Assembly (NCBI RefSeq): GCF_003626975.1 | Contig: NZ_CP032616.1 | Location: 4,874,001-4,938,000 of the forward strand | Direction of reading: 5' to 3' | Origin: Pseudomonas sp. DY-1 | GTDB taxonomy: Bacteria > Pseudomonadota > Gammaproteobacteria > Pseudomonadales > Pseudomonadaceae | Length of the DNA: 64,000 nt | Shown here: positions 5,269 through 54,311 of the stretch, piece by piece | How positions within the stretch are numbered: position 1 is the stretch's first letter | Layout: each line of letters begins with the position of its first letter | Position numbers and translations under genes: made by a program | The notes under the pieces: model-generated | Told to the model about the DNA's origin: nothing | The model's input: only the letters and a program-made list of their open reading frames with translations | Database searches by the model: none

Positions 5269-5305
5269 TGAATTCTCCTTCAGGAGGCGGGCCTGGGGCC
5301 CCAAC

Positions 5306-5331
5306 GGTGGATGAGAAGAGCGTCATCCACC
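5306..5331. repeat. REP-like inverted repeat
   Basis: GGTGGATGA and its complement flank an 8-nt loop in the purH-purD gap. It resembles the short palindromic repeats scattered through Pseudomonas intergenic regions. Confidence 0.45.
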
Positions 5332-5494
5332 CTACAAAAGCTACGAATCTTCTACGACGGACTGTAGGGGGCGCGATGGAGCGGGTAGATGCAAGGCGTC
5401 CGGTCCTTCACCCAGCGGAGTTGCCTTCTGGCAATGAGCATTGGGGAAGGGCCGGACAACGCAGCAGATGCCCGCTTCAGTGCGTCCCTGTCAC

Positions 5495-7102
5495 TCAGTG
5501 GCGGAAGTGGCGCATGCCGGTGAACACCATCGCGATGCCGGCTTCGTCGGCGGCGGCGATGACTTCGTTGTCACGCATGGAGCCGCCCGGCTGGATCACG
5601 GCGGTGATGCCGGCCTTGGCCGCATTGTCGATGCCGTCGCGGAACGGGAAGAAAGCGTCGGAAGCCATGACCGCACCCTTCACCTCAAGACCGGCATGCT
5701 CGGCCTTGATGGCGGCGATGCGGGCGGAGTTGACGCGGCTCATCTGGCCGGCGCCGACGCCGACGGTCTGACGGTTCTTGGCGTAGACGATGGCGTTGGA
5801 CTTGACGAACTTGGCCACTTTCCAGGCGAAGATCAGGTCGTGGATTTCCTGCTCGCTCGGGGCGCGCTGGGTGACGATCTTCAGGTCTTCTGCCTTGATC
5901 ATGCCGATGTCGCGGCTCTGTACCAGCAGGCCGCCGTTGACGCGCTTGAAGTCCCAGCCTGCGGCACGCTCAGCCGGCCATTCACCGCATTCCAGCAGGC
6001 GCACGTTGGCCTTGGCAGCGACCACTTCACGAGCGGCGGCGGAGATTTTCGGCGCGATGATGACTTCGACGAACTGGCGCTCGACGATGGCCTTGGCGGT
6101 ATCAAAGTCCAGTTCGCGGTTGAAGGCGATGATGCCGCCGAAAGCGGATTCGGTGTCGGTGGCGTAGGCCAGGTCGTAGGCCTTGCGAATGCCGCCTTCG
6201 TTTTCCGGTACGACGGCCACGCCGCACGGGTTGGCGTGCTTGACGATGACGCAGGCCGGCTTGACGAAGCTCTTCACGCACTCCAGCGCAGCGTCGGTAT
6301 CAGCCACGTTGTTGAAGGAGAGTTCCTTGCCCTGCAGCTGCACGGCGGTGGAGACGCTGGCCTCGCCCTTTTTCGCTTCTACATAGAACGCCGCGCTCTG
6401 GTGCGGGTTCTCGCCGTAGCGCATTTCCTGGGCCTTGACGAACTGGCTGTTGAAGGTGCGCGGGAAGGCGCTACGGCCTTCGGTGGACAGGGTGTCGCGT
6501 GCCTGGTCGATGGTGCCCAGGTAGTTGGCGATCATGCCGTCGTAGGCGGAGGTGTGCTCGAACGCCTTGAGGGCCAGGTCGAAACGCTGCGCGTAGGTCA
6601 GGCCACCAGCCTTCAGGCCTTCGAGGACGCTGGCATAGTCGCTGGCGTTGACCACGATGGCGACGTCCTTGTGGTTCTTCGCGGCGCTGCGGACCATGGT
6701 CGGACCGCCGATGTCGATGTTCTCGATGGCTGTCGGCAGGTCGCAGTCAGGCTTGGCGACAGTGGCTTCGAAGGGGTACAGGTTGACCGCGACCAGGTCG
6801 ATCGGCTTGATGCCGTGCTGTTCCATCACCGCGCCATCGAGGTCGCGACGGCCAAGGATGCCGCCGTGGATCTTCGGGTGCAGGGTCTTCACGCGGCCGT
6901 CCATCATTTCCGGGAAACCGGTGTAGTCGGCGACTTCCACGGCGGCGATGCCGTTGTCCTTGAGCAGCTTGTAGGTACCGCCGGTGGAGAGGATCTCTAC
7001 GCCGAGGGCAGCCAGTTCACGGGCGAACTCGACGATGCCGGTCTTGTCGGAAACGCTGATCAGGGCGCGGCGAACGGGAAGGCGGGTGGTCTGGTCGGTC
7101 AT
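5495..7102 (-). CDS. purH: Bifunctional AICAR transformylase / IMP cyclohydrolase
   Basis: Catalyses the last two steps of IMP synthesis. It is 535 residues, the usual length. The N-terminal MGS-like IMP cyclohydrolase domain (about 10-150, [16 protein letters not shown] and STGGTYKLL) is followed by the AICAR transformylase domain (about 150-535), with [10 protein letters not shown], the [10 protein letters not shown] segment holding the catalytic Lys-His pair, and [11 protein letters not shown]. It lies downstream of dusB-fis and upstream of purD. The 115-nt gap from fis contains a long imperfect inverted repeat that could act as terminator or attenuator. Confidence 0.98.
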
Positions 7103-12496: not shown

Positions 12497-12961
12497 TCAG
12501 ACGATGGTGAACAGCGGCTGGTCGTACTCAACCGGCTGACCGTTTTCCACGAGGATGGACTCGATCACGCCACTGGCTTCGGCTTCGATGTGGTTCATCA
12601 TCTTCATGGCTTCGACGATGCAGAGGATGTCGCCTTTCTTCACGCTCTGGCCGACTTCGACGAAGTTGCCCGAGGTCGGGGAGGCGGCACGGTAGAAAGT
12701 GCCGACCATCGGAGAGCGCACGACGTTGCCGTTCAGCTTCGGTGCTGCCGGTGCAGCGGCTTCAGCTGCGGCGACCGGAGCGGCAGCGGCAACAGGTGCT
12801 GCTACCGGTGCCGGGGCGGCGGCGTAAACCGGCTGGGCCGCGAAGGCCTTGTTGCTGTGACGGCTGATGCGCACGGACTCTTCGCCCTCGCGGATCTCCA
12901 GTTCGTCGATACCGGACTCTTCCAGCAGTTCGATCAGTTTCTTGACTTTACGGATATCCAT
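12497..12961 (-). CDS. accB: Biotin carboxyl carrier protein of acetyl-CoA carboxylase
   Basis: Carries biotin between AccC and the carboxyltransferase AccAD. It has 154 residues: an N-terminal helical region ([17 protein letters not shown]), an Ala/Pro-rich flexible linker (about 45-78), and the C-terminal biotinyl domain with the EAMKM biotinylation motif (K120). Between aroQ (26 nt upstream) and accC, as in most gammaproteobacteria. Confidence 0.98.
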
Positions 12962-12987
12962 TAATCATCAACTCCCAAGGGGTGAGG

Positions 12988-13431
12988 TCAGGGGCGTTCA
13001 AGGTGTTCTAGCGCCGCGTCCAGGGCCAGGCGGTAGCCGGTGGCACCCAGACCGCAGATCACTCCTACTGCAACGTCGGAGAAGTAGGAGTGGTGGCGGA
13101 AAGGTTCCCGTTTGTGCACGTTGGACAGGTGCACTTCGATGAATGGGATGCTCACTGCGAGCAATGCGTCACGTAGGGCGACACTTGTATGCGTGAAAGC
13201 AGCAGGATTGATGATGATGAAGTCCACTCCTTCACCGCGGGCCGCATGAATCCGGTCGATGAGTTCGTACTCGGCATTGCTCTGCAGGTACATCAGGTGA
13301 TGGCCGGCCTCGCGAGCGCGGCGCTCCAGGCCCTGGTTGATCTCGGCCAGGGTCGTGGCCCCGTACTTATCGGGTTCGCGGGTGCCCAGCAGGTTGAGGT
13401 TGGGGCCGTGCAGGACGAGCAGGGTGGCCAT
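12988..13431 (-). CDS. aroQ: Type II 3-dehydroquinate dehydratase
   Basis: Dehydration of 3-dehydroquinate to 3-dehydroshikimate in the shikimate pathway; a cytosolic dodecamer in this family. The 147-residue protein shows [14 protein letters not shown] with the catalytic-loop Arg, the Tyr in [24 protein letters not shown] with the general-acid His, and FIEVHLSN. First gene of the operon with accB and accC. PAO1 has a second aroQ, so this copy corresponds to aroQ1. Confidence 0.97.
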
Positions 13432-13553
13432 GCTGTTTGTTCCTTATTGGAGGCCAGGCGGCACTATGCCGGACAGCGGAAAAGGCTGTCCAGTTGCCGA
13501 CAGTAATCGACAAGATGCCCGGTGTTTGCGGCAAATATATGACGTTGCATGCG

Positions 13554-15332
13554 TCAGCGCGACGCATTCGCCTGTTGCAGACGGGCGGCGAAGGCCTTGG
13601 CATCGACTTCACCTACGACACGCAGATCGGCCAATTCGTCACCCTTGCCGTTGAAGAACAGGATGGCCGGCGGCCCGAACAGCTTGTAGCGATCGAGCAG
13701 GGCGCGTTGTTCCGGATTGCTCTCGGTCATGTCGAAGCGGATAAGGCGGTAGCCGCCCAGCTGCGAGGTAACCTCCATGGCGGTAAGGACTTCACGCTCG
13801 ATCACCTTGCAACTAATGCACCAGTCGGCATACCAGTCCAGCAGCAGCGGCTGGCCAGAGCCTTTGGCCTCTGCGAGGACCCCGGTGAGTTCCACCGGAG
13901 TCTTGATCGTTTGCCATGCTCCGCTGGCCGGGGCGACGGACGGCGCACCAACCAGGTGCGCACGGCCGAGCGGACGCAACGGATCGGATTCTCCCTTGAG
14001 GGCGCCCGACCAGGCAGCCACTGCGTAGACCAGCAGGACCAGTCCTGCCAGTTGACCCAGGCGCTCGCGCGGAGCCTTGGGGGTGAATTCCAGGGCGCCG
14101 AGGAACAGCGCAACGCCGCCGGCAAGCAGGCCCCAGAGGCCCAATGCCAGGGGGCCGGGCAGGACGCGTTCGAGCATCCATACCGCTACCGCCAGCAGCA
14201 GCACGCCGAAGGCATTGCGTACGCTGACCATCCACTGGCCTGCCTTGGGCAGCAGGGCACCGCCGCCGGTGGCGAACAATACCAGCGGGGCGCCCATGCC
14301 CAGGCCGAGGGCGAAGAGCTTGAGGCCGCCTCCCAGGGCGTCGCCGCTTGCACTGATATAGAGCAGGGCTCCGGCCAGCGGCGCAGAGACGCAGGGCGAG
14401 ACCAGCAGGCTGGAGACCACGCCGAGCAGCGCGGCGCTCCAGATCGAGCCACCCTTGGTGCTGCCCGCCAGCGAATCCAGCGGGCCGCTGATGAAGCGCG
14501 GCAGGCGTAGTTCATAAAGGCCGAACATGGCCAACGCGAAGAGGGTGAAGAAGCCGGCGAAGGGCACCAGTACCCAGGGCGACTGCAAGCGTGCCTGCAG
14601 GTTGAGTTCGGCGCCGAACAACCCCATCAGCGCACCCAGCAGGGCAAAGCAGGCGGCCATCGGTAGGATGTAGGCCAACGAAAGCGTCAGGCCGCGTCCG
14701 CCGCCTGCCTTTCCGCGCAGTACCACGCCGGAAAGAATCGGCAGCATTGGCAGCACGCAGGGCGTGAAGGTCAGACCGAGGCCCGCGAGGAAGAACAGGG
14801 CCAGTTCGTGCCAGCCCCAGCCTGTGCCGGCGGTGCTGCTGCCCAAGGAGTCAATGCCGCTGCTGGCGCCACCCTCAGCCAGTTTGATGACCTCGGTCTC
14901 TGGCGGATAGCACAGGCCCTTGTCGGCGCACCCCTGGTAAGTCACTCGCAACTCGGTGGGGGCCTTGCGTGACGGGTCCACCGGCAGGTTGACGTCGGTG
15001 ACGCCGTAGTACACCTCGACGTCGCCGAAGTACTCGTCGGTCTTGTGCTTGCCGGCCGGCAGCACGGGCTGGCCCAGGCCGCTGTCGGCGGGCTCTGCGC
15101 GGAACTGGAAGCGGTGACGATAAAGGTAATAACCCTCGGCATTGGTGAAGCGCAGCTTCACCGAGGTGGGGCTGCTTTCCACGAGGCTGAGGCGGAAGGC
15201 CTCGCGAACCGGCAGGAAGTCTCCGCTGTTATTGAGGGAGGCACCCAGGGTCGGGCTCGGGCGGTTGTCCAGCAACCCTGCGGCGGCGGGCAGGGCCACC
15301 AGCAGAAAGATCAGGCTCAGCAGACGGCGCAT
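13554..15332 (-). CDS. dsbD: Thiol:disulfide interchange protein DsbD
   Basis: Moves electrons from cytoplasmic thioredoxin across the inner membrane to reduce periplasmic DsbC/DsbG and cytochrome-maturation partners. It has 592 residues: signal peptide (MRRLLSLIFLLVALPAAAG), N-terminal immunoglobulin-like DsbD-alpha domain with cysteines in GCADKGLCYPPE, eight-helix DsbD-beta domain with FTPCVLPM and SPCVSAPLAG cysteines, and C-terminal thioredoxin-like DsbD-gamma with DWYADWCISCKV. Named dipZ in some Pseudomonas annotations. It is separated from aroQ by 122 nt, so probably its own transcription unit. Confidence 0.96.
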   Translation of the reverse strand: MRRLLSLIFLLVALPAAAGLLDNRPSPTLGASLNNSGDFLPVREAFRLSLVESSPTSVKLRFTNAEGYYLYRHRFQFRAEPADSGLGQPVLPAGKHKTDEYFGDVEVYYGVTDVNLPVDPSRKAPTELRVTYQGCADKGLCYPPETEVIKLAEGGASSGIDSLGSSTAGTGWGWHELALFFLAGLGLTFTPCVLPMLPILSGVVLRGKAGGGRGLTLSLAYILPMAACFALLGALMGLFGAELNLQARLQSPWVLVPFAGFFTLFALAMFGLYELRLPRFISGPLDSLAGSTKGGSIWSAALLGVVSSLLVSPCVSAPLAGALLYISASGDALGGGLKLFALGLGMGAPLVLFATGGGALLPKAGQWMVSVRNAFGVLLLAVAVWMLERVLPGPLALGLWGLLAGGVALFLGALEFTPKAPRERLGQLAGLVLLVYAVAAWSGALKGESDPLRPLGRAHLVGAPSVAPASGAWQTIKTPVELTGVLAEAKGSGQPLLLDWYADWCISCKVIEREVLTAMEVTSQLGGYRLIRFDMTESNPEQRALLDRYKLFGPPAILFFNGKGDELADLRVVGEVDAKAFAARLQQANASR

Positions 15333-41440: not shown

Positions 41441-42074
41441 GGCCCAGACCGTGTAAAAACGTGGCTCGTGCCCTTGCTATGCTGCCGGCGGGTTTCGTAG
41501 CGGGGGCAGTCCATGAAGCGTTTCATCCCGGGCGAGTGTCGAGGCCAAAGCACGCTGTTGCCCGAGAGCCTGAATGATTACGTGGCGTACACCAACCCGG
41601 TGCGGGTCGGCGATGTGTTCGACGATGAACTCGACCTTGGCCGACTGGGTTTCGAAGGTATCGTCCCCGCGGAAACCGGTCGGCCTGCTTACCATCCTGC
41701 TGTTCTGTTGAAGATCTACATCTCGGCTACCTTAATCGCATCCAGTCCAGTCGCCGCCCCGAACGCGAGGCACAGCGCAACGTTGAGCTGATGTGGCTGA
41801 CCGGACGCCTGATGCCGGACTTCAAGACTATCGCCAACTTCCGAAAGGCCAAGACCTCGGCCGCGGCCGCAGCGGGTCGCTTTGGCAGCGATGAAGGCCT
41901 GAAACCCCATTGGCGGCCAGCTGAACGCGTCGCACAGCATCGCGGAAGCCGCACGTGCCCGAATCAGTGAATGACCCGGATCGACACGCCAGGCGCCCAA
42001 AGGGCCTCTGGGCGCTGCTAAAACCATCCAGCATCCAGCTATCCATCACCCGCTGTGTTTTTACACGGCCTGGG
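41441..42074 (+). mobile_element. Decayed IS1182-like insertion sequence with terminal inverted repeats
   Basis: A 634-bp segment bounded by GGCCCAGACCGTGTAAAAAC (41441-41460) and its inverted copy (42055-42074, one mismatch in 20). It holds the N-terminal part of an IS1182-type transposase, broken by a frameshift. Intact members of the family are roughly 1.6 kb, so most of the interior is missing. No target duplication is obvious. The right repeat encodes the last residues and stop of the neighbouring diguanylate cyclase. IS1182 assignment rests on recalled transposase sequence. Confidence 0.7.
41513..41860 (+). pseudogene. IS1182-family transposase fragment, frameshifted and truncated
   Basis: The frame from 41513 begins MKRFIPGECRGQSTLLPESL and continues through GRPAYHPAVLLKIYI, the conserved N-terminus of IS1182-family DDE transposases. 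Around 41723 one base appears lost; homology then continues in another frame as GYLNRIQSSRR..EREAQRNVELMWLTGRLMPDFKTIANFRK to about 41860, where it stops. The DDE catalytic region is absent, so it cannot be active. Confidence 0.82.
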
Positions 42075-43191
42075 CCATCTCCAACCTGTCCCGCCCCAGC
42101 GCCTTCGCGCGGTAAAGCGCATCGTCAACACGCTTGAAGAAGGCTTCGGCGCTGCCAGCGTCGCGCTCGTCGAGGCAACCGAGACCCAGACTCGTGGTTA
42201 CCGGCAAATGCTGGTCGCCAAGCTGGAAGCCCCGATTGGCCAGGTCCTCGCGGAACTGTTCGGCCAGGTGGCGGGCCTGTTCCATGCTGGTATCGGGCAT
42301 CAATACGCCGAACTCCTCGCCCCCCAGGCGCAGCAGTGCGTCGCTGTCGCGGCGGAAGAATTCGCGCATGCGCTCGCCGAACGCCTGCAGACAGGCATCG
42401 CCCATGCTATGGCCGTGCTCGTCGTTGATCCGCTTGAAGAAGTCGATGTCCATCAGCAGCAACGACAGCTCGCTCCCGTGGCGCTGGGCGGCGGCGCACA
42501 TGGCCGGGAACAGGTTGTTGAACTGGTAGCGGTTGCCCAGTTGGGTCAGGCCATCGGTGCGGCTCAGGGTGTCCAGGCGCTGGCGCTGCTCCAGCAACTG
42601 CAGCTCCAGGGCGAGCATGGTGCCGTACTCGCGGTGGCTGCGATTCAGCGCCAGCAGCAGGTAGCTGAGGTAGAAGGTGAGGGTGACCAGCTCGGCACGC
42701 GAACCGTCCGCGGAAACACCCAGAACGACCAGGCCCGGCAGGTACAACAGCAGGATGGCGATGATTGCGCGACTTCGGCGCATGGCAAAGTTGAAGGCCA
42801 TCGCGGTACTGAAGGCGATGGTCGCCAGGGTGCCGATAAGGCTGGAAGAGTGGAAGTCGGGCGCCAGCAGTACCCAGGCGTGGGCCAGGCCCCAGCCGAT
42901 GGACGACACTAGGATCACGCCCCAATGCCGGTCCAGCCAGTGCTGCAGTTCGGCTTCGCTTCCTTCTGCCGGTGGATGGTGCAGCAGGCGCGCTGCCAGC
43001 ATCAGGGCGAAGAATCCGCTACCGAGCAGCCCCACGGCCAGGTGTCCCATGGGGGCTGCGCTGAACAGCCAGCAGAGCAGCCAGGCCAGGAGGTAATAGA
43101 CGCCGCCGAGTCTTGTGCGTGTGCGGGTGTCCTGCACTTCGCGCCAGAGGCTGAACCGCTCTGGGGAATGGGGTAAATCGGCATCGGTCAT
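42061..43191 (-). CDS. Membrane-bound GGDEF diguanylate cyclase
   Basis: 376 residues. Six hydrophobic helices in the first 200 residues (starting about 33-50, YYLLAWLLCWLFSAAP) form an integral-membrane sensor; a coiled-coil (LALELQLLEQRQRLDTLSR) leads to a GGDEF domain (about 210-370) with LRLGGEEFGVL active site and RDSD I-site, so it should make c-di-GMP. The final residues (EMAQAV) and TAA lie inside the inverted repeat of the adjacent IS remnant, so the native C-terminus was replaced; the catalytic domain is complete. Confidence 0.92.
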   Translation of the reverse strand: MTDADLPHSPERFSLWREVQDTRTRTRLGGVYYLLAWLLCWLFSAAPMGHLAVGLLGSGFFALMLAARLLHHPPAEGSEAELQHWLDRHWGVILVSSIGWGLAHAWVLLAPDFHSSSLIGTLATIAFSTAMAFNFAMRRSRAIIAILLLYLPGLVVLGVSADGSRAELVTLTFYLSYLLLALNRSHREYGTMLALELQLLEQRQRLDTLSRTDGLTQLGNRYQFNNLFPAMCAAAQRHGSELSLLLMDIDFFKRINDEHGHSMGDACLQAFGERMREFFRRDSDALLRLGGEEFGVLMPDTSMEQARHLAEQFREDLANRGFQLGDQHLPVTTSLGLGCLDERDAGSAEAFFKRVDDALYRAKALGRDRLEMAQAV

Positions 43192-43970: not shown

Positions 43971-45953
43971 ATGGACAACAAGACGAGTTGGATCAATCTG
44001 GGCACTGCCCTGACCCTGGCAATGGTGTTTTCCCTTACCGGGTGCAGCAGCGGCGGCGGTGGCTCGAAGAGCTTCGTGGACAGCGCGAGCAGCGATACGC
44101 CAGCGGATGCTTCGACTGGCACTGATAGCGGAACGGGTGTCGATGGCGGCGCTGGCGGTGGAGTGGTGGATGGTGGCGTCGGAGGAGGGAGTGGCGGCGG
44201 CGTGGTGGGTGGCGGAACCGGTGGCGGTACGGGCGGTGGCGTGGTGGATGGCGGCACAGGCGGCGGCACCGGTGGTGGAACTGGAGGCGGAACCGGTGGT
44301 GGTACTGGAGGCGGTACCGGTGGCGGCACGGGCGGTGGCGTGGTGGATGGCGGCACAGGCGGCGGTACCGGTGGTGGAACTGGAGGCGGAACCGGTGGCG
44401 GTACGGGCGGTGGCGTGGTGGATGGCGGCACAGGCGGCACCGGTGGTGGTACTGGAGGCGGTACCGGTGGCGGCACGGGCGGTGGCGTGGTGGATGGCGG
44501 TACCGGCGGAGGCTCAGGTGGCGGAACTGGAGGCGGCTCGGGTGGCGGTAGTGGCGGCGGAACCACTGTTCCCAGCCTGGTGACTGCCGAAGTGCTGCAG
44601 GACGCCGGGGGCATCGTCTCGGGTGCTGGCAACGCGGCCGAGCAACTGGGCCAGGTAGTCGGCAACATCCCGCTCGCCGGTAACGAGGACCTCACGGGGG
44701 GCGCGGGTGATCTGTTGTCTTCCGTTGGCCAGGCCACTGATAGCCTGGGCGATGGCATCAAGAATGGCGTTGGTCAGTTGGGTTCTGACGGCAATGCGCT
44801 GGGCACCACCGTTGCTTCGGTGGGTGAAGCGGTGAACGATCTGGGCGAAGGCGTTTCGGCTCTGGGCGATGGTGTGAAGGCCTTCTCCGACTCATCCGCC
44901 GTGCAGCATCTGCCGGTACTAGGCGACGCCGTCGGTGGCGTGACCGACAGGGTGGGCACGTTGGTGGATGGCGTTGGCGAAAAGGTCTCCATGCTCGGCA
45001 ACACACTGGACACCGCCGCGACTTCCGGCCCGCTGGGTGAGGTCACCGGTGCCGTCGGCGCCAGGCTGGTGCCCGTGGTCAGCCTGGCGGAAGGCGTCAC
45101 CGGCAAACTCGGTACCGCGACCGGGCTTAACGAGCCGGTGGGCGGCCTGCTGGACAAGGTCGGGGACACCCTCGGCACGGTAGGTGACACAGTTGCCGAT
45201 GGCGTCGATAACCCCGTGGGGCAAGCTGTCGGCGACACCCTGGGTAAGACCGGCGATGCCCTGTCCACCAGTGGCGGCTTGCTCGACCAGCAGGAAGGCA
45301 GCAACACGCCGCAGGCGAGCCTGGATGCCGTGGTCAGTAATGTGACTGATGCCACCAGCCAGCTCGGCCAGCAGACCGGCATCGCCACCCCCGTGGACAA
45401 CCTGCTGGAAACCGCTGGTGGCGTGATAGCCGGGGCTGGTGGCGGCCTGGACGCCGGCAGCAACAACGGCCTGGTCAGCGCAGCGGGCGGCGCCGTGTTG
45501 GAAACCGGGCAGACGGTGGCATCCCTCGGCACCCTCGTGGGCGGTGACGGCATCACCAATAGCCCTGTCGGCGTACCGGTGGCTGCGGTCACCAGCAATG
45601 TCGGCGCCGCACTGACTCCAGTGGTTCAGGGCGTTGATGGCGCTACGCAGCAACTGGGTGCGAGCACCGGACTGGGCGACCCTGCCGGCAATCTGGTGCA
45701 GCAGGTAGGGGGCGCCGTAGCCGGCCTTGGCCAGCAAGTCGACACCTCCAGCAGCAACCCGGTAGTCGGTCAGGTTGGGCAAACGGTCGATGGTGCCGGC
45801 CAGGTCGTCGAACAGGTCGGTGACCTGCTCCAGGGTGGTAGCAGCGCGCCGGGCGGCGCACTCGGCGGCCTTGGCGCCACGCTGCAAGGCAGCGTCACCG
45901 GTAGCGTGAGCGGCAGTCTCGGCACCGGCCTGCTGGGTGGCCAGCGGAACTGA
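43971..45953 (+). CDS. Glycine-rich (collagen-like repeat) surface lipoprotein
   Basis: 660 residues. Lipoprotein signal with lipobox LTGC (C25). Residues about 55-200 are almost pure Gly with Thr/Ser in GGGTGG/GGVVDGG modules. The rest (about 200-660) is a slowly varying repeat of hydrophobic-Gly segments (VGGLLDKVGDTLGTVGDTVADGV; TSQLGQQTGIATPVDNLLETAGG) that looks like extended helical or solenoid packing. Such proteins are often auto-annotated as collagen-like triple-helix repeat proteins, but Pro is nearly absent, so a true collagen helix is doubtful. It is followed after 75 nt by a TpsB-type transporter on the same strand, suggesting it is that transporter's substrate or partner. No TPS secretion domain is recognisable. 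Confidence 0.85.
   Translation: MDNKTSWINLGTALTLAMVFSLTGCSSGGGGSKSFVDSASSDTPADASTGTDSGTGVDGGAGGGVVDGGVGGGSGGGVVGGGTGGGTGGGVVDGGTGGGTGGGTGGGTGGGTGGGTGGGTGGGVVDGGTGGGTGGGTGGGTGGGTGGGVVDGGTGGTGGGTGGGTGGGTGGGVVDGGTGGGSGGGTGGGSGGGSGGGTTVPSLVTAEVLQDAGGIVSGAGNAAEQLGQVVGNIPLAGNEDLTGGAGDLLSSVGQATDSLGDGIKNGVGQLGSDGNALGTTVASVGEAVNDLGEGVSALGDGVKAFSDSSAVQHLPVLGDAVGGVTDRVGTLVDGVGEKVSMLGNTLDTAATSGPLGEVTGAVGARLVPVVSLAEGVTGKLGTATGLNEPVGGLLDKVGDTLGTVGDTVADGVDNPVGQAVGDTLGKTGDALSTSGGLLDQQEGSNTPQASLDAVVSNVTDATSQLGQQTGIATPVDNLLETAGGVIAGAGGGLDAGSNNGLVSAAGGAVLETGQTVASLGTLVGGDGITNSPVGVPVAAVTSNVGAALTPVVQGVDGATQQLGASTGLGDPAGNLVQQVGGAVAGLGQQVDTSSSNPVVGQVGQTVDGAGQVVEQVGDLLQGGSSAPGGALGGLGATLQGSVTGSVSGSLGTGLLGGQRN
44155..44570 (+). 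repeat. Short tandem GGN repeats coding the polyglycine tract
   Basis: About 410 bp of near-perfect 12-bp modules (variants of GGCGGAACCGGT) organised into larger blocks each ending in GGVVDGG. Because units are multiples of three, slippage would change tract length without frameshift. Confidence 0.85.
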
Positions 45954-46028
45954 CCCGCCTCCGTCGGGCTCCCGAGCGGAGCCCGGCGCTCTCCTGCCCT
46001 ATCCGGCGACGCGCTCAGGGAGTGACCC

Positions 46029-47699
46029 ATGCGTGCTTCAGCAGTACTGCTCGCACTTGGCTGCGTGGTGCTCAACCATGCCCAGGCACAACAGAGTCCG
46101 GTCTATCTCAACAGCAACGAAATCGAACGTCAGCTACCCGCCCCCAACCTGCCGACCGATGCCTATCGGCCCAAGGCGCCTTCGCTCAAATTGCCGGAGG
46201 CGACTAAACCGCAGCCGCTGATGATGAGTACCCGCGTGAGGGTTCGTGAGGTGAGGATCGAGGGCGGCAGTATCTACCCCTCGGCCCAGTTGAATGCGAT
46301 CTACCAGCCCTTTGTGGGTCGCGAGGTGAGCCTGGGCGAACTGATCGAAGCCACCCGTGGACTGACCCGGCGCTACCAGGGCGATGGCTACCTGTTGTCC
46401 TACGCGTTCCTCCCGGTGCAAGGCTTCGAGCAGGGGAGGGTGCGGGTGGTATTGGTGGAGGGGTATGTAAAGGACTACCAGGTCGAGGGCGACATCGGCG
46501 CCGTGCGCGCCCACGTCGACAAACTCGTCGCGAGGTTGCAGGCCGAGCGACCGCTGACCCGCAAGACCTTCGAGCGTTACACCAGCCTGATGGCGCGCGT
46601 TCCCGGCGTCACCCTGATCGCACGGGTGCCGCCGCCGGCCACTACCGATGGCGCCAGCCGCCTGCAGATACAGGCATCGCGCAAACCCTGGACCAGCAGC
46701 CTCAATTTCAGCGAAGACAATCGTGGTAGTGCGCAGGCGGTGCTGGGGCTCTCCAGCAACGCCCAGACCGCCATGGCCGAGCAGGTCAGCTTCAGCGTGC
46801 TGGCACCGCCCGGTAAAGACGACGAGCGCTACTACCGGCTCGACTACAGCCAGTACCTGGGTAGCGATGGCACGCGCCTGAACCTCTATGGCTCGCATTA
46901 CCGCAGCCAGCCCGAAGACAACCTGCGCCTGGCCAACGGTCTGGAGCTGGAGCGTCACCTGAACAACGACCGTCTCTCGATTGGCGTAAGCCATCCGGTC
47001 ATCGCCGCACAGAAGGAATGGCTGAGCCTCGGCGCGCGCCTCTATGGCGTGAACGACCGGGTACGCTACGAGGTGGTCGGCTTCCCCCTCGGCATCGATG
47101 CTGATACCGACCTGCGCGCCATCGCGTTCGAGGGCGACTGGAGCCGCTCCGATGATCGCCGTCTGCGCATTCTCAGCGCCGGTCTCTATCGGGGAATGGA
47201 TGCTTTGGGCGCACGCACCGACAGTGACCTGTTCGATCTGGAGTTCACCCGCTTGCGCCTGTCCGGTGTGCAGAGCGAACGTTTCGGCAAGAACTGGCAA
47301 GGCGTGCTGTCCGCCGCGCTGTACTGGAGCGAAGACAGCCTGCCGGATGCGGAGCAGGCGGTGTTCGGTGGCCAGAACTTCGGTCGTGGCTACCCGAGCG
47401 ACCAGGCATCAGGCGACAAGGGGTGGGGTGCGGCCGTTGAGCTGAACTACAGCCATCGACGAGAGGGCCGCTGGGTTCGCCTGCTTCAGCCCTACGTGGT
47501 GGTCGATACCGCGCAGGCCTGGTTCAACGAGCAGCCTCTGCCCCGCTCGCATCTCTCGTCCCTGGCAACGGGTGTGAGGATGGGGGACGCGCACTACTAC
47601 AACGTCGCGTTGGAGGTAGCCAGGCCGATGTCGGACGAAGCCCTCGACAGCCGCAACCGCAGCCCGCGTGTGACCCTGAGTTTCAGCTACCAGTTGTAG
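46029..47699 (+). CDS. TpsB/ShlB-family outer-membrane transporter
   Basis: 556 residues. Signal peptide (MRASAVLLALGCVVLNHAQAQ), a linker, a POTRA_2 domain (about 70-150, VREVRIEGGSIYPSAQLNAIYQPFVG), second POTRA-like segment (about 150-200), then a 16-strand-type beta-barrel ending in SFSYQL, with an L6-type motif in FGGQNFGRGYPSD. This is the two-partner secretion transporter family (FhaC/ShlB), which exports TpsA exoproteins through the barrel. The only adjacent candidate cargo is the upstream glycine-rich lipoprotein. ATG 46029 preceded by GGGAGTG. Confidence 0.9.
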   Translation: MRASAVLLALGCVVLNHAQAQQSPVYLNSNEIERQLPAPNLPTDAYRPKAPSLKLPEATKPQPLMMSTRVRVREVRIEGGSIYPSAQLNAIYQPFVGREVSLGELIEATRGLTRRYQGDGYLLSYAFLPVQGFEQGRVRVVLVEGYVKDYQVEGDIGAVRAHVDKLVARLQAERPLTRKTFERYTSLMARVPGVTLIARVPPPATTDGASRLQIQASRKPWTSSLNFSEDNRGSAQAVLGLSSNAQTAMAEQVSFSVLAPPGKDDERYYRLDYSQYLGSDGTRLNLYGSHYRSQPEDNLRLANGLELERHLNNDRLSIGVSHPVIAAQKEWLSLGARLYGVNDRVRYEVVGFPLGIDADTDLRAIAFEGDWSRSDDRRLRILSAGLYRGMDALGARTDSDLFDLEFTRLRLSGVQSERFGKNWQGVLSAALYWSEDSLPDAEQAVFGGQNFGRGYPSDQASGDKGWGAAVELNYSHRREGRWVRLLQPYVVVDTAQAWFNEQPLPRSHLSSLATGVRMGDAHYYNVALEVARPMSDEALDSRNRSPRVTLSFSYQL

Positions 47700-47703
47700 C
47701 AAC

Positions 47704-47733
47704 AAAAAGGCCGCCATCCCGGGCGGCCTTTTT
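47704..47733. terminator. Bidirectional terminator between tpsB-like gene and response regulator
   Basis: AAAAAGGCCGCC, loop ATCCCG, then GGCGGCCTTTTT: perfect stem with A-run and U-run, serving both convergent genes. Confidence 0.92.
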
Positions 47734-47750: not shown

Positions 47751-48164
47751 TCAGTTGCTGACCAGTTTCAACTGGGGCTGAGGGAACTGGTCCTTGATGA
47801 CTTCCACCAGACGTTCCAGGTAGATGGGCTTGCGGAAGAAGTCGATGACATGCAGGCGCAGCACATCGATCACGTCGTCCATGTCGGCATGGCCTGAGGT
47901 CACGATCACTGGCAGGTGTTGCTTGTTGGTATGGGCACGTAGTCGCTGGATCAGTCGCATACCACTTTCCTCGGGCATGCGCAGATCGGTGACGACCAGG
48001 GAAATGTTGGGGTGGAGCAGCAAAAGGTCTATCGCGCTCCTGACCGAAGTGGCGGTGTGGCAGTAGAAGCCTTCGCCTTCGAGCATCTCTGCCAGTTCCT
48101 GCAGGATGTCTTCTTCGTCGTCGACCAGGAGCAACTGCTGTCGCAGCATTGGGGACTGGCTCAT
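47751..48164 (-). CDS. Single-domain response regulator (CheY-like)
   Basis: 137 residues, one receiver domain and no output domain. Acid pocket LLVDDEEDI, phospho-acceptor Asp in LVVTDLRMPEESG, Thr/Ser VIVTSGHAD and Lys FFRKPI are all present, so it should be phosphorylatable. ATG preceded by GCAGGAGG. It lies 76 nt downstream of flp on the same strand and could be cotranscribed. I recall no such gene next to PAO1 flp. Candidate kinases include PprA at the other end of the locus. Confidence 0.92.
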   Translation of the reverse strand: MSQSPMLRQQLLLVDDEEDILQELAEMLEGEGFYCHTATSVRSAIDLLLLHPNISLVVTDLRMPEESGMRLIQRLRAHTNKQHLPVIVTSGHADMDDVIDVLRLHVIDFFRKPIYLERLVEVIKDQFPQPQLKLVSN

Positions 48165-48809: not shown

Positions 48810-49742
48810 ATGAATAGCCGGATGACCATGGCTTTGGCCGCGGTGCTGTTGCTGGGCGCCTTGCTGGCCGGATATTGGGGGATAGTGCTCAGCCGCGCGC
48901 CGCAGGCAGCTCAAATGGCTTCGCCGACCGCTCCTGGCGAATCTTCCAACCAGTCCAACGATCCCGCCGACAAGCTGCGTACACCTGTCGTGGTCGCCGC
49001 CCGCCTTCTTGATCCGTTTACGGCTGTCACGGCCGAAGACCTGCGCGTCGAACAACTGCGCATCGCCCCGCCGGGTAGCTTCAGCAAGGTCGAAGACGTG
49101 ATCGGTCGCCGGCCCTGGACACCTGTTCCGGCCGGCAGTTGGCTCAACCCGGCGAGTTTCGAGGCCGGTGGGCCGCTGGCCCGCATGATCCGCGCGGACG
49201 AGCGCGCCGTGGCGGTGCCTGTGGATGAAGTCGTGGGCGGCGGTGGCCACCTGCGCCCGGGGGACTATGTCGACGTGCTGCTGTTCCTGCGCGGCGAAGG
49301 CGGCAGTGGTCAGCAAAGCGCCCAGGTGGCGGTGCCAGCCTTGCGCCTGCTGAGCTTCGGCGAGGACCTGGGGCCGGATTCCGAAGGGCGCGCCAGCCAA
49401 CCTGCGAAAGACGAAGAGAAAGCCCAGCGCCGGTCCCCCGCGACTGCTGTGCTGGCGGTCCCGGAGCAACAGGTGACACGGCTGATGTTGGCCAGCCAGG
49501 CCGGCTCCCTGCGCCTGGCGGTACGCAGCGCCGACGAACGCCTGCTGGAGCGCTACCAGGCTGGTGAACCTGGCGCCGCCCCCCTAGACGGTGCCAGCCG
49601 CCACCTCATTCCCCTCGAACAACTGGCCGCCTCGCCGGCGCCCCGCCGCGCCCCAACGCCCGCGCCGAAAGTCGTCTCCGCCGGCAAAGGACCGGGAGTC
49701 GCCATTTACCGCGGTGCTGATCTGACACGCCAGATCCCCTGA
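48810..49742 (+). CDS. rcpC: Tad pilus assembly protein RcpC/CpaB
   Basis: 310 residues. N-terminal membrane helix (about 5-27), SAF domain (about 58-125; TPVVVAARLLDPFTAVTAEDLRVEQL) and RcpC domain (about 130-260; AVAVPVDEVVGGGGHLRPGDYVDVLLF). CpaB proteins sit in the periplasm and are thought to connect or stabilise the RcpA secretin. First gene of the long Tad operon, 20 nt upstream of rcpA. Confidence 0.94.
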   Translation: MNSRMTMALAAVLLLGALLAGYWGIVLSRAPQAAQMASPTAPGESSNQSNDPADKLRTPVVVAARLLDPFTAVTAEDLRVEQLRIAPPGSFSKVEDVIGRRPWTPVPAGSWLNPASFEAGGPLARMIRADERAVAVPVDEVVGGGGHLRPGDYVDVLLFLRGEGGSGQQSAQVAVPALRLLSFGEDLGPDSEGRASQPAKDEEKAQRRSPATAVLAVPEQQVTRLMLASQAGSLRLAVRSADERLLERYQAGEPGAAPLDGASRHLIPLEQLAASPAPRRAPTPAPKVVSAGKGPGVAIYRGADLTRQIP

Positions 49743-49762
49743 CCCTGCAAGGAACGCCTGAA

Positions 49763-50986
49763 ATGAAGCGTTGGATCGTATCCATGATCTTTCCCCTGCT
49801 TGGCTGTGCGCCCTTGGGCGTGTGGGCTGCGCCGGGTTGCGACGCGCTGGGCCAGGCCCCCGGCGTGGTGGAAGTGGGGCAGGGTCGCCAGGAGCTCATG
49901 AGCTACCCGCTGGCCATTACCCGCATTGCGGTGGGTGACCCCGCTGTGGCGGATGTCCAACTCGCCGACAAGCAATCCTTTCTGATCACGGGCAAGAAAG
50001 GCGGCGCCACCAGCCTGATGGTCTGGACCGGCTGCAGCCGTGAGCCGCGCCGCAGCCTGCTCTATGTTGGCGGCGCGGCCAGCAAGGCATTGGAGGCATC
50101 CTTGGCCGAGCCCATGGCGGAGGACGCCGTGACGAGCCAGGTGCAGACCGATATCCGCTTCGTCGAGGTCAGCCGGGGCAAGCTCAAACAGGCCAGTACC
50201 TCGCTGGTGCGCCAGGGCTCCAACCTCTTCGTGCTGGGTGCGCCGGGCAGTCTCAACAACATCACCGTCACGCCGGGCGGCGTTCTCGACGGCACTTTCG
50301 GTAGCCCCACTGGTGGCTTCGACATCATCTGGGGGGGCGGCAGCAGCAAGGTGCTGGGTTTCATCAATGCCCTGGAGAACAGCGGCTTCGCCTACACGCT
50401 GGCCAAACCGAGTCTCGTGGCGTTGAGCGGGCAGAGTGCGAGCTTCCTGGCCGGTGGAGAGTTTCCCGTTCCCGTACCTAACGGCGATGGTGACGACATC
50501 ACCATCGAGTACAAAGAGTTCGGCGTGCGGCTGACCCTCACCCCTACCGTGGTCGGGCGCCAGCGGATTTCCCTGAAGGTGGCGCCGGAGGTCAGTGAAC
50601 TGGACTTCAGTTCCGGTATCAGCATTGCCGGTACCCAGGTGCCGGCACTCAAGGTGCGGCGCACCGACACCAGCATTTCCCTGGCCGACGGTGAGAGCTT
50701 CGTCATCAGCGGCCTGATCAGCAGCCAGAACGTTGCCAACATCGACAAGTTTCCCGGCCTCGGCGACCTGCCAGTGATCGGCGCATTGTTCCGCTCTTCG
50801 CGGATCGACCGTGAGGATCGCGAATTGCTGATGATCGTCACCCCGCGCCTGGTGAAACCGCTGGCGGTGGACGCACAGCTGCCTGAGCTGCCGGGCGAGC
50901 GCTTGCGTCGCTACGACCCGGGTTTCTTCGACTTCTACCTCAACGAGCGTGGCGATTTCGACCGCCGTGCCGGGTTGTCGGAGTAA
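49763..50986 (+). CDS. rcpA: Tad secretin RcpA/CpaC
   Basis: 407-residue outer-membrane secretin through which the Flp pilus exits. Signal peptide (MKRWIVSMIFPLLGCAPLGVWA), N-terminal pilus-formation domain (about 35-105; ITRIAVGDPAVADVQLADKQSFLITGKKGG), and secretin core (about 215-375) with PSLVALSGQSASFLAGGEFPVPVP, the VPALKVRRTDTSISLADGESFVISGL motif and the LGDLPVIGALFRSS lip. Between rcpC and tadZ. Confidence 0.96.
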   Translation: MKRWIVSMIFPLLGCAPLGVWAAPGCDALGQAPGVVEVGQGRQELMSYPLAITRIAVGDPAVADVQLADKQSFLITGKKGGATSLMVWTGCSREPRRSLLYVGGAASKALEASLAEPMAEDAVTSQVQTDIRFVEVSRGKLKQASTSLVRQGSNLFVLGAPGSLNNITVTPGGVLDGTFGSPTGGFDIIWGGGSSKVLGFINALENSGFAYTLAKPSLVALSGQSASFLAGGEFPVPVPNGDGDDITIEYKEFGVRLTLTPTVVGRQRISLKVAPEVSELDFSSGISIAGTQVPALKVRRTDTSISLADGESFVISGLISSQNVANIDKFPGLGDLPVIGALFRSSRIDREDRELLMIVTPRLVKPLAVDAQLPELPGERLRRYDPGFFDFYLNERGDFDRRAGLSE

Positions 50987-50992
50987 GGCACC

Positions 50993-52162
50993 ATGAGCCA
51001 GACCTTCCTCGCGTTCACCCGCAACAGTGCCGACCTGGAATGGTTACAGGGTGCCCTGATGCCGCTAGGCCAGGTACTCAGCGCCGGCCGTGGTGCCCTT
51101 GACGAATTGCTCGGGCTGATCGAGGTCACTGGCGCCAGCCTGCTGTTCATCGGCCTGGACCGTGACAACCTGGTTGCCCAGACCTCCCTGATCGAAGGCG
51201 CCCTGAGCGCACGGCCGATGCTGGCGGTGGTGGCCATGGGCGATGGCCTGGACAACCAGTTGGTGCTCAACGCCATGCGAGCGGGCGCTCGCGACTTCGT
51301 GGCCTACGGGGCGCGTACCAGTGAAGTCGCCGGATTGGTGCGGCGCCTGGTGCAGCGGCTGCCGAGCGTCATGCCGACCCACAACGCCGGGCGCCTCACC
51401 GCCCTGTTCAGCCGCCAGCAGGATGCCGACGCGGCACTGCTTTCGGCGCATCTGGCGTTGGCCATCAATCAATGTGGCCAGCGCACCCTGTTGCTTGACC
51501 TTGGCCAACCCCAGGGCGACAGCCTGACTCTGCTGGGGCTGGAGGCGTCCTTCCACTTTGCCGATGCGCTGCGCAACTTGCGTCGCCTGGACACCGCGCT
51601 CATCGACAGCGCCTTCGGCAGCCACTCCGATGGTCTGCGGCTGCTGGTGCAGGAGGCGGGTGGCGAGACACTGGAGCGGATCAACGCCGCTGAGCTCTAC
51701 CTGCTGCTCGGAACCTTGCGCCAGCACTTCCAGCACATCGTGGTGAACCTGGTCGGGCAACCTGACAGCGAGGCCCTGCGCATTCTCGTCGGAAACGCTG
51801 ACCGGTTGCTCTGGTGCACCGACCAGAGCGTGCCGGATTGCCGCCGCAACATTGAATTGCTTGGCCGCTGGCGCGACGCCGGAGTGAAGTTGGAGCATGC
51901 GCAATTACTGGTAGACCGCCACCTGCGTGGCGTGGCGCCTGAATCCGAAGTGCTGGCCCGCTCCTTCAACCTACCGGTGGCGGAGGTCCTGCCCAACAGC
52001 CCCGAATTGCGAATGAACGCCAAGAACCAGGGACGCAGCCTGTTCGAACTGGCGCCCCGCGAGCGCCTCAGCCAACGCCTGCGCGAGCTGGGCGAGCGGC
52101 TGGCCTGCATCGAGCAACCCAGGACTCGGTCCTGGCAACGGCTGTGGAGCGTCCGGACATGA
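50993..52162 (+). CDS. tadZ: Tad localisation protein TadZ
   Basis: 389 residues of the CpaE/TadZ family: atypical receiver-like N-terminal domain (1-125) and ParA/MinD-like ATPase domain (about 135-370). The position of the Walker A is occupied by ALFSRQQDADAALLSAHLA, which lacks the canonical GKGGVGKT, so ATP hydrolysis is unlikely; degenerate Walker boxes occur in other TadZ proteins. TadZ localises the machine at the pole. Stop overlaps the tadA start (ATGA). Confidence 0.9.
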   Translation: MSQTFLAFTRNSADLEWLQGALMPLGQVLSAGRGALDELLGLIEVTGASLLFIGLDRDNLVAQTSLIEGALSARPMLAVVAMGDGLDNQLVLNAMRAGARDFVAYGARTSEVAGLVRRLVQRLPSVMPTHNAGRLTALFSRQQDADAALLSAHLALAINQCGQRTLLLDLGQPQGDSLTLLGLEASFHFADALRNLRRLDTALIDSAFGSHSDGLRLLVQEAGGETLERINAAELYLLLGTLRQHFQHIVVNLVGQPDSEALRILVGNADRLLWCTDQSVPDCRRNIELLGRWRDAGVKLEHAQLLVDRHLRGVAPESEVLARSFNLPVAEVLPNSPELRMNAKNQGRSLFELAPRERLSQRLRELGERLACIEQPRTRSWQRLWSVRT

Positions 52163-53430
52163 GCGGCGAAAGTGTCTTCGGCGGCGCTGTCCGCTATACC
52201 CAGCTAGGCCATAACGACCCGCAGGGCCTGAAGCTGGTGCTGCACCGCTACATCATCGACGCCATTGATGACGATGGCGTGAACGTCCTGGAAGGGGCAC
52301 GCGGAGCCGTGTCCCAGTACGTCATCGACAAGGTGGTGGAGTTTGTCGGCCGCCATCACCTGGCGGTGTCGCGCTACGAAATGGAGCGCCTGGCCGAAGA
52401 GTTGGTGGATGAACTGACCGGCTTCGGACCGCTGGAGGTGCTGCTACGCGACCCCGGCGTCACCGAGATTCTGGTCAACGGCCCGTGCCGCATCTTCATC
52501 GAGCGTGAGGGCGTGCTGCACCAGAGCGATCTGCGCTTCATCGACGACCAGCACGTGCTGCGGGTGATCCAGCGCATCCTCGCGCCGCTCGGCCGGCGCC
52601 TCGACGAATCCAGCCCTATGGTCGACGCACGTCTGCCGGATGGCAGCCGGGTCAACGCCATCATCCCGCCCATCGCCTTGGACGGCCCCTGCATCTCGGT
52701 GCGCAAATTCCGCAAGGACCTGCTGCAAAGCTCCGACCTGCTGGCCTACCAGTCCCTGGATGAAGCCATGCTGCAATTCATCCGTCGCGCCGTGGGCGAG
52801 CGCTGCAACATCCTGGTCAGCGGCGGCACCGGAACCGGCAAGACCACGTTGCTCAATGTCATGAGCCTGTTGATCGACAGTCACGAGCGTCTGGTCACCA
52901 TCGAAGACACTGCCGAACTACAACTCAACCACCCCCACGTGGTCCGCCTGGAAACCCGCCCGCCGAATGCCGAGGGGCGTGGCGAGGTGGGGGCCAGCGA
53001 CCTGATTCGCAACGCCCTGCGCATGCGCCCGGACCGCATCATCCTCGGCGAAATCCGGGGTGTCGAAGTGCTCGACGTGCTGCAGGCGATGAACACCGGC
53101 CACGACGGCTCCATGAGTACTGTGCACGCCAACTCTGCGCTGGATTCGCTGCTGCGCCTGGAAACCCTGGTGGGACTCACAGGTCGCCAGGTGGCCGAGC
53201 GCACCTTGCGGCAGATGATCTGCGCTGCCCTCGACCTGGTGATCCAGCTTACCCGCCTGCCCAATGGCCGCCGCTGCGTCAGCGAAGTGGTAGAGGTGGT
53301 GGGCGTGCGTGACGACGTCTACGTGACCAACTGCCTGTTCCGTCTTGACCGCGCCAGTGGCCGCTTCATCAGCGAGGCGGTCAATCCTGCCGGGGAGAAG
53401 CTGCGCCAGGCCGTGGGAGGTGGACGATGA
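52159..53430 (+). CDS. tadA: Tad pilus secretion ATPase TadA/CpaF
   Basis: 423-residue hexameric ATPase powering Flp pilus assembly and probably retraction. Walker [14 protein letters not shown] with K228, Asp box [10 protein letters not shown], Walker [16 protein letters not shown], and His box [13 protein letters not shown] are all intact. ATG at 52159 is set by the 4-nt overlap with tadZ; a GTG 15 nt upstream is less likely. Overlaps tadB by 4 nt. Confidence 0.97.
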
Positions 53431-54311
53431 GCGGGCCGCTGTTGCTAGGGCTGCTCGGCGGCCTGCTGCTGGTCCTCGGGTTGGCGCTGGCGCGTCGGGG
53501 CTGGCGACAGTCCGGCGAAGAGCGCGTGTTGCAACGCCTGGGGCAGGACCTGGCAATGCCGGCCCCGGCCGTTGCGCGACCGGGCTGGCTGGAGCGTGCC
53601 TTCCTGCGCGCGGGCCTTGGCCTGCCGCGTGAACGCATCGGCCTGTTGCTTTCAACCTGGCTGGCGGCCCAGATGCTGGCGGCTCTGCTTGCAGGCTGGG
53701 TTGCCGCTCTCGCAGTGGCGCTGCTGCTGCCGCTCGGTTTGCGCGGCTGGCTGAGCTGGCGCTATGGGCGGCGAGTGCGGCGCATGGTGGAGCAGTTGCC
53801 GCAGATGCTCGACCAGGTGGTACGTAGCCTGCACGCGGGGCGCACGCTGGGTGATGCCGTGGTACGGGCCATCGATGCCTCTCCCGAGCCGCTGCACGGT
53901 GCGCTGTCACGGGTCTCAAGGGATGTGAAGCTGGGTGTCAGCCTGCCCGACGCCCTGAAGGATGCGGGCGACCTGTTCGAACAGGAGGAACTGCGTATCC
54001 TCGCCCTCGGCGTACGGGTGAATCACCGCTACGGCGGTAGCTCCAGTGAACTGCTGGGCAACCTGATCAAGGTCATCCACGAGCGGGAGCAGATCGCCCG
54101 GCAACTTCATGCCATGACTGGCGAAACCCGCTTCACCGCCCTGGTGCTGGCGCTGCTGCCGGTGTCCGTGGCCGGCTACATCCTCTCGGCCAATCCAGGC
54201 TACCTGATGGGGCTCTGGCTGGACGCCAGTGGCCAGCGCATGTTGCTGGCGGCCTTCGGCATGCAGGTCCTGGGGTGTTTCATCCTCTGGCGCATGTTGA
54301 GGAGCGTGTGA
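53427..54311 (+). CDS. tadB: Tad platform protein TadB
   Basis: 294-residue inner-membrane protein with a T2SSF domain (about 125-250; EQLPQMLDQVVRSLHAGRTLGDAVVRA) flanked by an N-terminal helix, a central pair (about 75-110) and a C-terminal pair (about 232-290). With TadC it forms the platform contacting TadA. ATGA overlap with tadA. Confidence 0.95.
   Translation: MSGPLLLGLLGGLLLVLGLALARRGWRQSGEERVLQRLGQDLAMPAPAVARPGWLERAFLRAGLGLPRERIGLLLSTWLAAQMLAALLAGWVAALAVALLLPLGLRGWLSWRYGRRVRRMVEQLPQMLDQVVRSLHAGRTLGDAVVRAIDASPEPLHGALSRVSRDVKLGVSLPDALKDAGDLFEQEELRILALGVRVNHRYGGSSSELLGNLIKVIHEREQIARQLHAMTGETRFTALVLALLPVSVAGYILSANPGYLMGLWLDASGQRMLLAAFGMQVLGCFILWRMLRSV

Follow-up and report, generated by a model that had tools for sequence, protein, structure and literature searches.

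The lipoprotein-TpsB gene pair and its distribution

The stretch of DNA analysed here, referred to as the window, comprises 64,000 nucleotides of the Pseudomonas sp. DY-1 genome (contig NZ_CP032616.1, positions 4,874,001 to 4,938,000) and carries, next to each other on the forward strand, a gene for a glycine-rich lipoprotein and a gene for an outer-membrane transporter of the TpsB/ShlB type, the transporter family of two-partner secretion (TPS, type Vb). The open reading frame (ORF) of the lipoprotein, the proposed cargo (43971..45953, 660 amino acids), comes first and matches the Pfam family Collagen_mid (PF15984, E 4e-56); 75 bp further on, the ORF of the transporter (46029..47699, 556 amino acids) matches the families POTRA_2 (E 1.2e-18) and ShlB (E 9.6e-10). 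A preliminary description of this DNA, made from the letters alone, had named both genes, and the ORF list and the Pfam scan, in which matches to window proteins were considered up to E 1, confirm their positions, strand and lengths as well as the POTRA and barrel families; it had missed a stem-loop lying between them.

The conservation of the pairing is well supported. In a sample of the genus, Collagen_mid is found in 4 of 18 genomes, and in the same four a close TpsB (87-100% identity) adjoins it, while the remaining TpsB matches, among those listed, are at most 28% identical to the window TpsB. Among 398 genomes of the Pseudomonadaceae, Collagen_mid exceeds its cut-off in 93 (95 at E<=0.001) and the TpsB clade, whose members share at least 39% identity with the window protein and whose next matches reach at most 30%, occurs in 115. 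In every one of the 93 Collagen_mid genomes a TpsB of this clade follows on the same strand, its match lying 556-850 bp beyond that of the domain, which led us to reject chance neighbourhood; the association has a Fisher p of 5e-70, a value to be read with the kinship of the genomes in mind, as loci are not independent in this or any other count given here. The preliminary description had proposed checking co-occurrence across Pseudomonas genomes, and the outcome is strongly positive in this family and beyond it. Pairing in the 93 was judged by coordinates, and the genes were read in 39 (the window, L048, L054, L056, L131-L145 and L156-L175); counted as having TpsB are G540, in which it is split over two contigs, G572, in which it is in two pieces, and G676, in which it contains a stop. 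Because only the best seven first-pass candidates for Collagen_mid and the best three for TpsB were scored per genome, and a limited number of matches was taken up, absences are less sure than presences. Five genomes with Collagen_mid below the cut-off were left out of the counts: a TpsB match is missing from the region examined in G059, G156 and G888, G742 has a TpsB of the orphan type described below, and G398 is not among the TpsB-clade genomes.

The pair also occurs in other families and orders, and its order, strand and short gap are constant across five families and differing gene surroundings. In a class-wide sample three of 369 genomes exceeded the Collagen_mid cut-off, namely the window's own, G177 and G380, and in the latter two a TpsB with 31-32% identity to that of the window lies directly behind the lipoprotein gene. 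Within the family of G177, an unrelated one, Collagen_mid is present in 8 of 57 genomes and TpsB in nine; all eight are paired, seven of them with adjacent genes (six by reading the DNA and G817, whose TpsB is broken, by coordinates) and one, G806, with the two genes at contig ends, and the remaining TpsB, that of G782, begins near the end of a contig. An order-wide sample (7 of 390 over the cut-off) added a single new genome, G1043, in which lipoprotein, TpsB and Tad pilus genes lie side by side. From a plasmid collection, 69 records gave a TpsB match, and five from Burkholderiaceae stand out at 292-326 bits. Four of these were read (L151-L154, Cupriavidus/Caballeronia) and have, directly before TpsB, a Gly-rich protein whose similarity to the window lipoprotein comes from tblastn, and Tad genes beyond; L155, the fifth, is another C. 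metallidurans record. A related-locus search with one TpsB sequence returned only two loci.

Several features accompany these loci. Copies of the TpsB clade with a stop, or in two pieces or frames, are seen in L153, L154, G817, G676 and G572. The Cupriavidus loci L151, L153 and L154 contain a second lipoprotein-like stretch in the vicinity of pair and Tad genes, on the strand opposite to the pair (about 4870-5810, minus strand). Directly behind TpsB in G177 and G806 lies a gene for a Gly-rich protein of 325 amino acids with an apparently ordinary Sec signal (L050, about 12583-13560 in reversed orientation; L209, 3815-4792); in L209 its last residues are GPLLGGLL, which resembles how several of the lipoproteins end, and the protein is a possible second, non-lipidated client.

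All 22 Pseudomonadaceae genomes that have the TpsB clade and lack Collagen_mid were examined at locus level. In six (L117, L118, L122 and L128-L130) another Gly-rich protein occupies the lipoprotein slot, with a lipobox in five, the sixth (L128) being cut by the contig start; the L118 protein matches Pfam Collagen (E 2e-12) and the other five match nothing in Pfam. The remaining genomes, 16 of the 115 with the clade, have an open TpsB behind pbpC and no adjacent Gly-rich lipoprotein (orphan loci L109-L116, L119-L121 and L123-L127). The partnership that the preliminary description proposed thus stands as a conserved pairing, but not as an exclusive one. In a maximum-likelihood tree of 63 TpsBs, 58 members of the clade are parted from five others with a branch support of 100/100, these five forming the whole outgroup; in two of them (L146 and L148) the upstream protein was checked and matches the TPS domain, PF05860. 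The six TpsBs with another Gly-rich partner cluster together (98/98). The sixteen orphans are scattered among the lipoprotein-linked TpsBs, two changes being needed to account for them. The deep order of the tree is unsure because of the midpoint root and the long branches that meet near it.

The transporter and its lipoprotein partner

The window TpsB matches the two Pfam families of TpsB transporters. POTRA_2 covers residues 71-145 (46239..46463; PF08479, 67.1 bits against a cut-off of 24), a stretch with a predicted local distance difference test (pLDDT) score of 83-90 in the AlphaFold2 model, and the ShlB match covers residues 208-518 of the barrel (46650..47582; PF03865, 38.9 bits against 22.7). 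TpsB transporters have two POTRA domains and a barrel of about 16 strands; the model, built from 36 sequences, shows two POTRA-like alpha/beta units (about residues 69-200) and a many-stranded barrel, with a mean pLDDT of 65.6 and a weak last third in which most of residues 418-506 score below 50. An RGY motif at residues 453-455 (47385-47393), together with Asp493, corresponds to the loop 6 motif RG(Y/F) of TpsB transporters and its partner Asp; all 36 aligned TpsB sequences have R453, G454, Y455 and D493. Two orphan TpsBs (L123 and L125) carry GHGY instead of the RGY motif. The best Foldseek matches in the PDB by E-value are CdiB (6wim, 3.2e-18) and FhaC (4ql0, 1.9e-16), at template modelling scores of only about 0.3-0.4, and VIA-align does not single out TpsB, as Omp85 members and unrelated barrels score a similar Z.

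The genome of the window (G000) contains one TpsB match only (PF03865, E<=0.001). A search of ten genomes for the TPS domain PF05860 was empty in G000 and in G007 and positive in the other eight, and a hidden TpsA elsewhere in the genome was therefore rejected. The statement of the preliminary description that the TpsB has no TpsA accordingly holds for the whole genome, which leaves the window TpsB without a classical TpsA as client.

The lipoprotein has the lipobox LTGC (44034..44045), whose Cys25, followed by Ser, is the sole cysteine of the 660 residues. Residues 54-206 (44130..44588) form a poly-Gly tract of GGGTGG and GGVVDGG repeats with 63% Gly, the proposed tether, and the DNA is a tandem array at about 44150-44564. 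Residues 215-660 (44613..45950) form a Gly/Val/Leu/Ala repeat domain. A lipobox could be recognised in 45 of the 49 partners examined at other loci. None of these 45 has a second cysteine, and 413-875 amino acids follow their lipobox Cys; 44 of the 45 contain 0-3 aromatic residues, the exception being the L051 partner with 20. The four without a recognised lipobox are those of L050, where SVGC is present and falls outside the pattern, of L158 and L159, with one Cys each and no match to the pattern, and of L128, where the start is missing.

The preliminary description was right about a hydrophobic-Gly repeat domain, but overlooked that it belongs to an already known Pfam family: Collagen_mid matches in three stretches with 190.4 bits against a cut-off of 31.1, the best of them at residues 240-439 (44688-45287) inside the repeat domain. 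A true collagen Gly-X-Y repeat (PF01391) found no match in the window lipoprotein in the Pfam scan. The hydrophobic periodicity of the domain peaks at 100 degrees (z 13.8), with a z of -1.7 for beta, and in all nine proteins tried the peak lies at 100-104 degrees (z 6.3 to 13.8) with beta angles at z -3.6 to 0.7. The AlphaFold2 model is likewise helical, at a mean pLDDT of 47.6 from five sequences. Helical periodicity in the tested members makes "Bacterial collagen, middle region" seem a misleading name for the family. A search of solved structures gave no convincing relative of the lipoprotein (best E 0.013, within the Gly tract), and protein homologue searches with it each returned a single protein, probably as a result of low-complexity words crowding the candidates.

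The inter-gene stem-loop and the Tad neighbourhood

The stem-loop between the two genes (45962..45988, forward strand) is GC-rich, with an 11 bp stem and no T-tract (z 2.7). Stem-loops with z>3 follow the lipoprotein gene in 43 of 52 partnered loci (38 of 46 of the Collagen_mid type and 5 of 6 with another Gly-rich protein), compared with 1 of 16 behind pbpC in the orphan loci; a T-rich tail accompanies the stem-loop in 20 of the 52, and the stem sequences vary between lineages. These values stem from scans of 130 nt with 60 shuffles per locus that keep only base composition, and at short gaps the 130 nt extend into tpsB; a shorter scan of 75 nt gave z>3 in 21 of 46 paired loci, with many stems cut off. 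We read these stem-loops behind the lipoprotein gene as attenuation, which would yield more cargo than transporter. Terminator-like stem-loops could also separate the transcription of the two genes, as would suit genes of an attachment island that are merely co-inherited and have no molecular link. To this account we give the slimmest chance, since order, strand and short gap stay constant in 93/93 genomes and through five families with varied surroundings.

On its other side the pair adjoins a Tad locus. Behind tpsB follow an intrinsic-terminator-like site (47704..47733, forward strand), which is weak given two such sites in the region against a shuffle mean of 3.0, a response regulator gene on the reverse strand (47751..48164, PF00072) and, from 48810 to 54311 on the forward strand, the first part of a Tad locus (rcpC, rcpA, tadZ, tadA and tadB; RcpC by PF16976, the other names as read from the ORFs). 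The preliminary description took this neighbourhood to suggest a role in matrix or attachment. Tad genes are indeed frequent neighbours, adjoining the pair in the window's group, in most g285 loci (of 28 paired loci examined, 26 have tadA and 25 the response regulator), in G1043 and in the four Cupriavidus/Caballeronia records, but they are not general ones: no Tad match was found within the examined flanks at 7/7 g280 loci, L050, L051, L204-L207 and L211. We therefore discarded the idea that the Tad island is the true unit; it is the pair that is constant, given the flanks without Tad at the g280 loci, L050 and L051. All the flanks without Tad, those of L204-L207 and L211 included, speak against a reading in which both genes serve the Tad pilus, with TpsB exporting or assembling a Tad component and the lipoprotein coating or anchoring the pilus. 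This reading draws on the frequent adjacency and on a report that in Burkholderia cenocepacia contact with membrane vesicles of the host induces BCAL1523 and BCAL1524 along with the flp genes (PMC7970998), and we hold it to be very unlikely.

Two genes upstream of the pair lies a diguanylate cyclase gene (42061-43191, reverse strand; GGDEF, E 6.2e-40), which is also matched at this place in L054 and L056 and not in L055. Between it and a chemoreceptor-like gene, a short ORF (41513-41791) resembles the N-terminal piece of a transposase.

A candidate lipidated branch of type Vb secretion

Taken together, we consider it fairly probable that lipoprotein and TpsB are cargo and dedicated transporter of a lipidated branch of type Vb, in which TpsB displays the Gly-rich lipoprotein as an adhesin. 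In favour of this speak the constant pairing, the single TpsB match and the lack of a TPS-domain match in the window's genome, the fully supported branch of the TpsB tree, the other Gly-rich proteins in the lipoprotein slot, the cysteine and aromatic content of the partners, the inter-gene stem-loops and the reports on the homologue BCAL1524 discussed below. The lipoprotein would leave the cytoplasm by Sec, receive its lipid at Cys25 and move on to the outer membrane, where the POTRA domains of TpsB would take up the unfolded, Gly-rich and aromatic-poor chain for passage through the barrel. Outside the cell, the repeat domain, helical and amphipathic, would then be lipid-anchored via a poly-Gly tether of about 150 residues, and may act as an adhesin or aggregation factor. 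The suggestion of the preliminary description, a surface-lipoprotein route or a new TPS subclass, stays the best reading; transport itself, like lipidation, surface exposure, anchor topology and the adhesive role, is something that we infer. A wider proposal strikes us as evenly balanced, namely that type Vb includes a branch for the export of lipoproteins, in which a TpsB clade that can do without TpsA brings to the surface alpha-helical chains that are rich in Gly and lipidated at the N terminus, and in which TPS domain and beta-helix folding are unneeded, lipid anchor and long poly-Gly tether replacing both.

Several observations weigh against the export of the lipoprotein by TpsB. The window lipoprotein shows no match to the TPS domain PF05860 in the Pfam scan and no NPNG or NPNL motif in its sequence, and it is probably no beta-helix, so that the usual TPS recognition and the usual drive from folding are missing. 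Some of the inter-gene hairpins, notably those in long gaps, may be full terminators. For three of the five Collagen_mid genes of B. cenocepacia, the accessible part of PMC10224339 describes no outer-membrane barrel alongside, and other routes for such lipoproteins may hence exist. The main evidence against an exclusive partnership comes from the orphan TpsBs, in whose 16 genomes a search for the lipoprotein at other places gave no clear relative (one has a 17-bit match). Orphan TpsBs have a median identity to the window TpsB of 53.2% (n=16) compared with 62.1% for paired ones (n=28), while the neighbouring pbpC is similar in orphan and paired loci (77.3, n=16, and 78.2, n=5), as are rcpC, tadZ and tadB; rcpA (55.8 versus 59.2) and tadA (75.5 versus 78.5) also drop. 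The ratio of nonsynonymous to synonymous substitution rates (dN/dS) is 0.15-0.25 in the five closest orphan TpsB pairs; of the eight closest pairs from paired loci, seven lie at 0.05-0.11 and one at 0.33, whereas the medians over all pairs with dS of 0.05-1 point in the opposite direction (0.30 orphan, 0.35 paired). A relaxed constraint on orphan TpsBs is thus suggested by rate results that are mixed.

The persistence of TpsB without the lipoprotein in these 16 genomes would also fit a lipoprotein that is a periplasmic accessory of TpsB, be it anchor, chaperone or plug, with the exported cargo encoded elsewhere, and lipoprotein accessories do occur in TPS systems, as exemplified by BcpO in Burkholderia (PMC5422565). 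Against this, no TPS-domain protein was found in the window's own genome or in G007, and the partner is large, repetitive and variable in length. For the homologue BCAL1524, a study reports presence in outer-membrane vesicles as well as weaker autoaggregation and less harm to Galleria larvae when it is lost (PMC10303873); presence in vesicles shows an outer-membrane location rather than strict surface exposure. We regard the accessory role as unlikely.

Compared with the type Vb systems FhaB/FhaC and CdiA/CdiB, the pair is alike in its POTRA_2 domain and ShlB barrel and in having one cargo gene beside one transporter gene, and differs in that the cargo is a lipoprotein by its signal, lacks TPS domain and NPNG motif and has helical instead of beta periodicity. 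In type Va autotransporters the barrel belongs to the same polypeptide as the cargo, unlike the window barrel, which is a separate gene product with POTRA domains. Cargo of TPS systems is reviewed as having a TPS domain and a beta-helix (PMC5422565). Some autotransporters are lipidated (NalP, SphB1) and resemble the window system in bearing a lipobox on a protein exported through an outer-membrane barrel, the place of their anchor being undetermined according to the same source (PMC8151025). The Slam route likewise employs a dedicated outer-membrane protein for surface lipoproteins (PMC5449769); in the Pfam scan up to E 1 the window barrel matches only POTRA and ShlB families.

The closest relatives in the literature are the Collagen_mid lipoproteins of the Burkholderia cepacia complex (Bcc-CLPs), described as candidate adhesins (PMC10224339). 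BCAL1523 and BCAL1524 share with the window protein PF15984, the lipoprotein signal, a low-complexity tract and a neighbourhood with an outer-membrane protein gene and a flp locus: they adjoin BCAL1522, an outer-membrane protein called "heme utilization-related", and the words two-partner and ShlB are absent from the accessible part of that paper (PMC10224339). Judging from its position, its length and the similar name of the Pseudomonas homologue P0092, BCAL1522 would be a TpsB of the clade described here. Neither a TpsB paired with Collagen_mid or another lipoprotein cargo nor a transporter link for BCAL1524 came up in searches of one open-access library.

TPS transporters have been understood through cargo with a TPS domain and a beta-helix, and a conserved TpsB clade with a helical, Gly-rich lipoprotein as partner would, if true, show that the barrel can work without both. 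It would likewise add a dedicated route for surface lipoproteins in Pseudomonas and Burkholderiaceae, and the Collagen_mid lipoproteins, including a reported aggregation factor of B. cenocepacia, gain a candidate exporter that is testable by the deletion of one gene.

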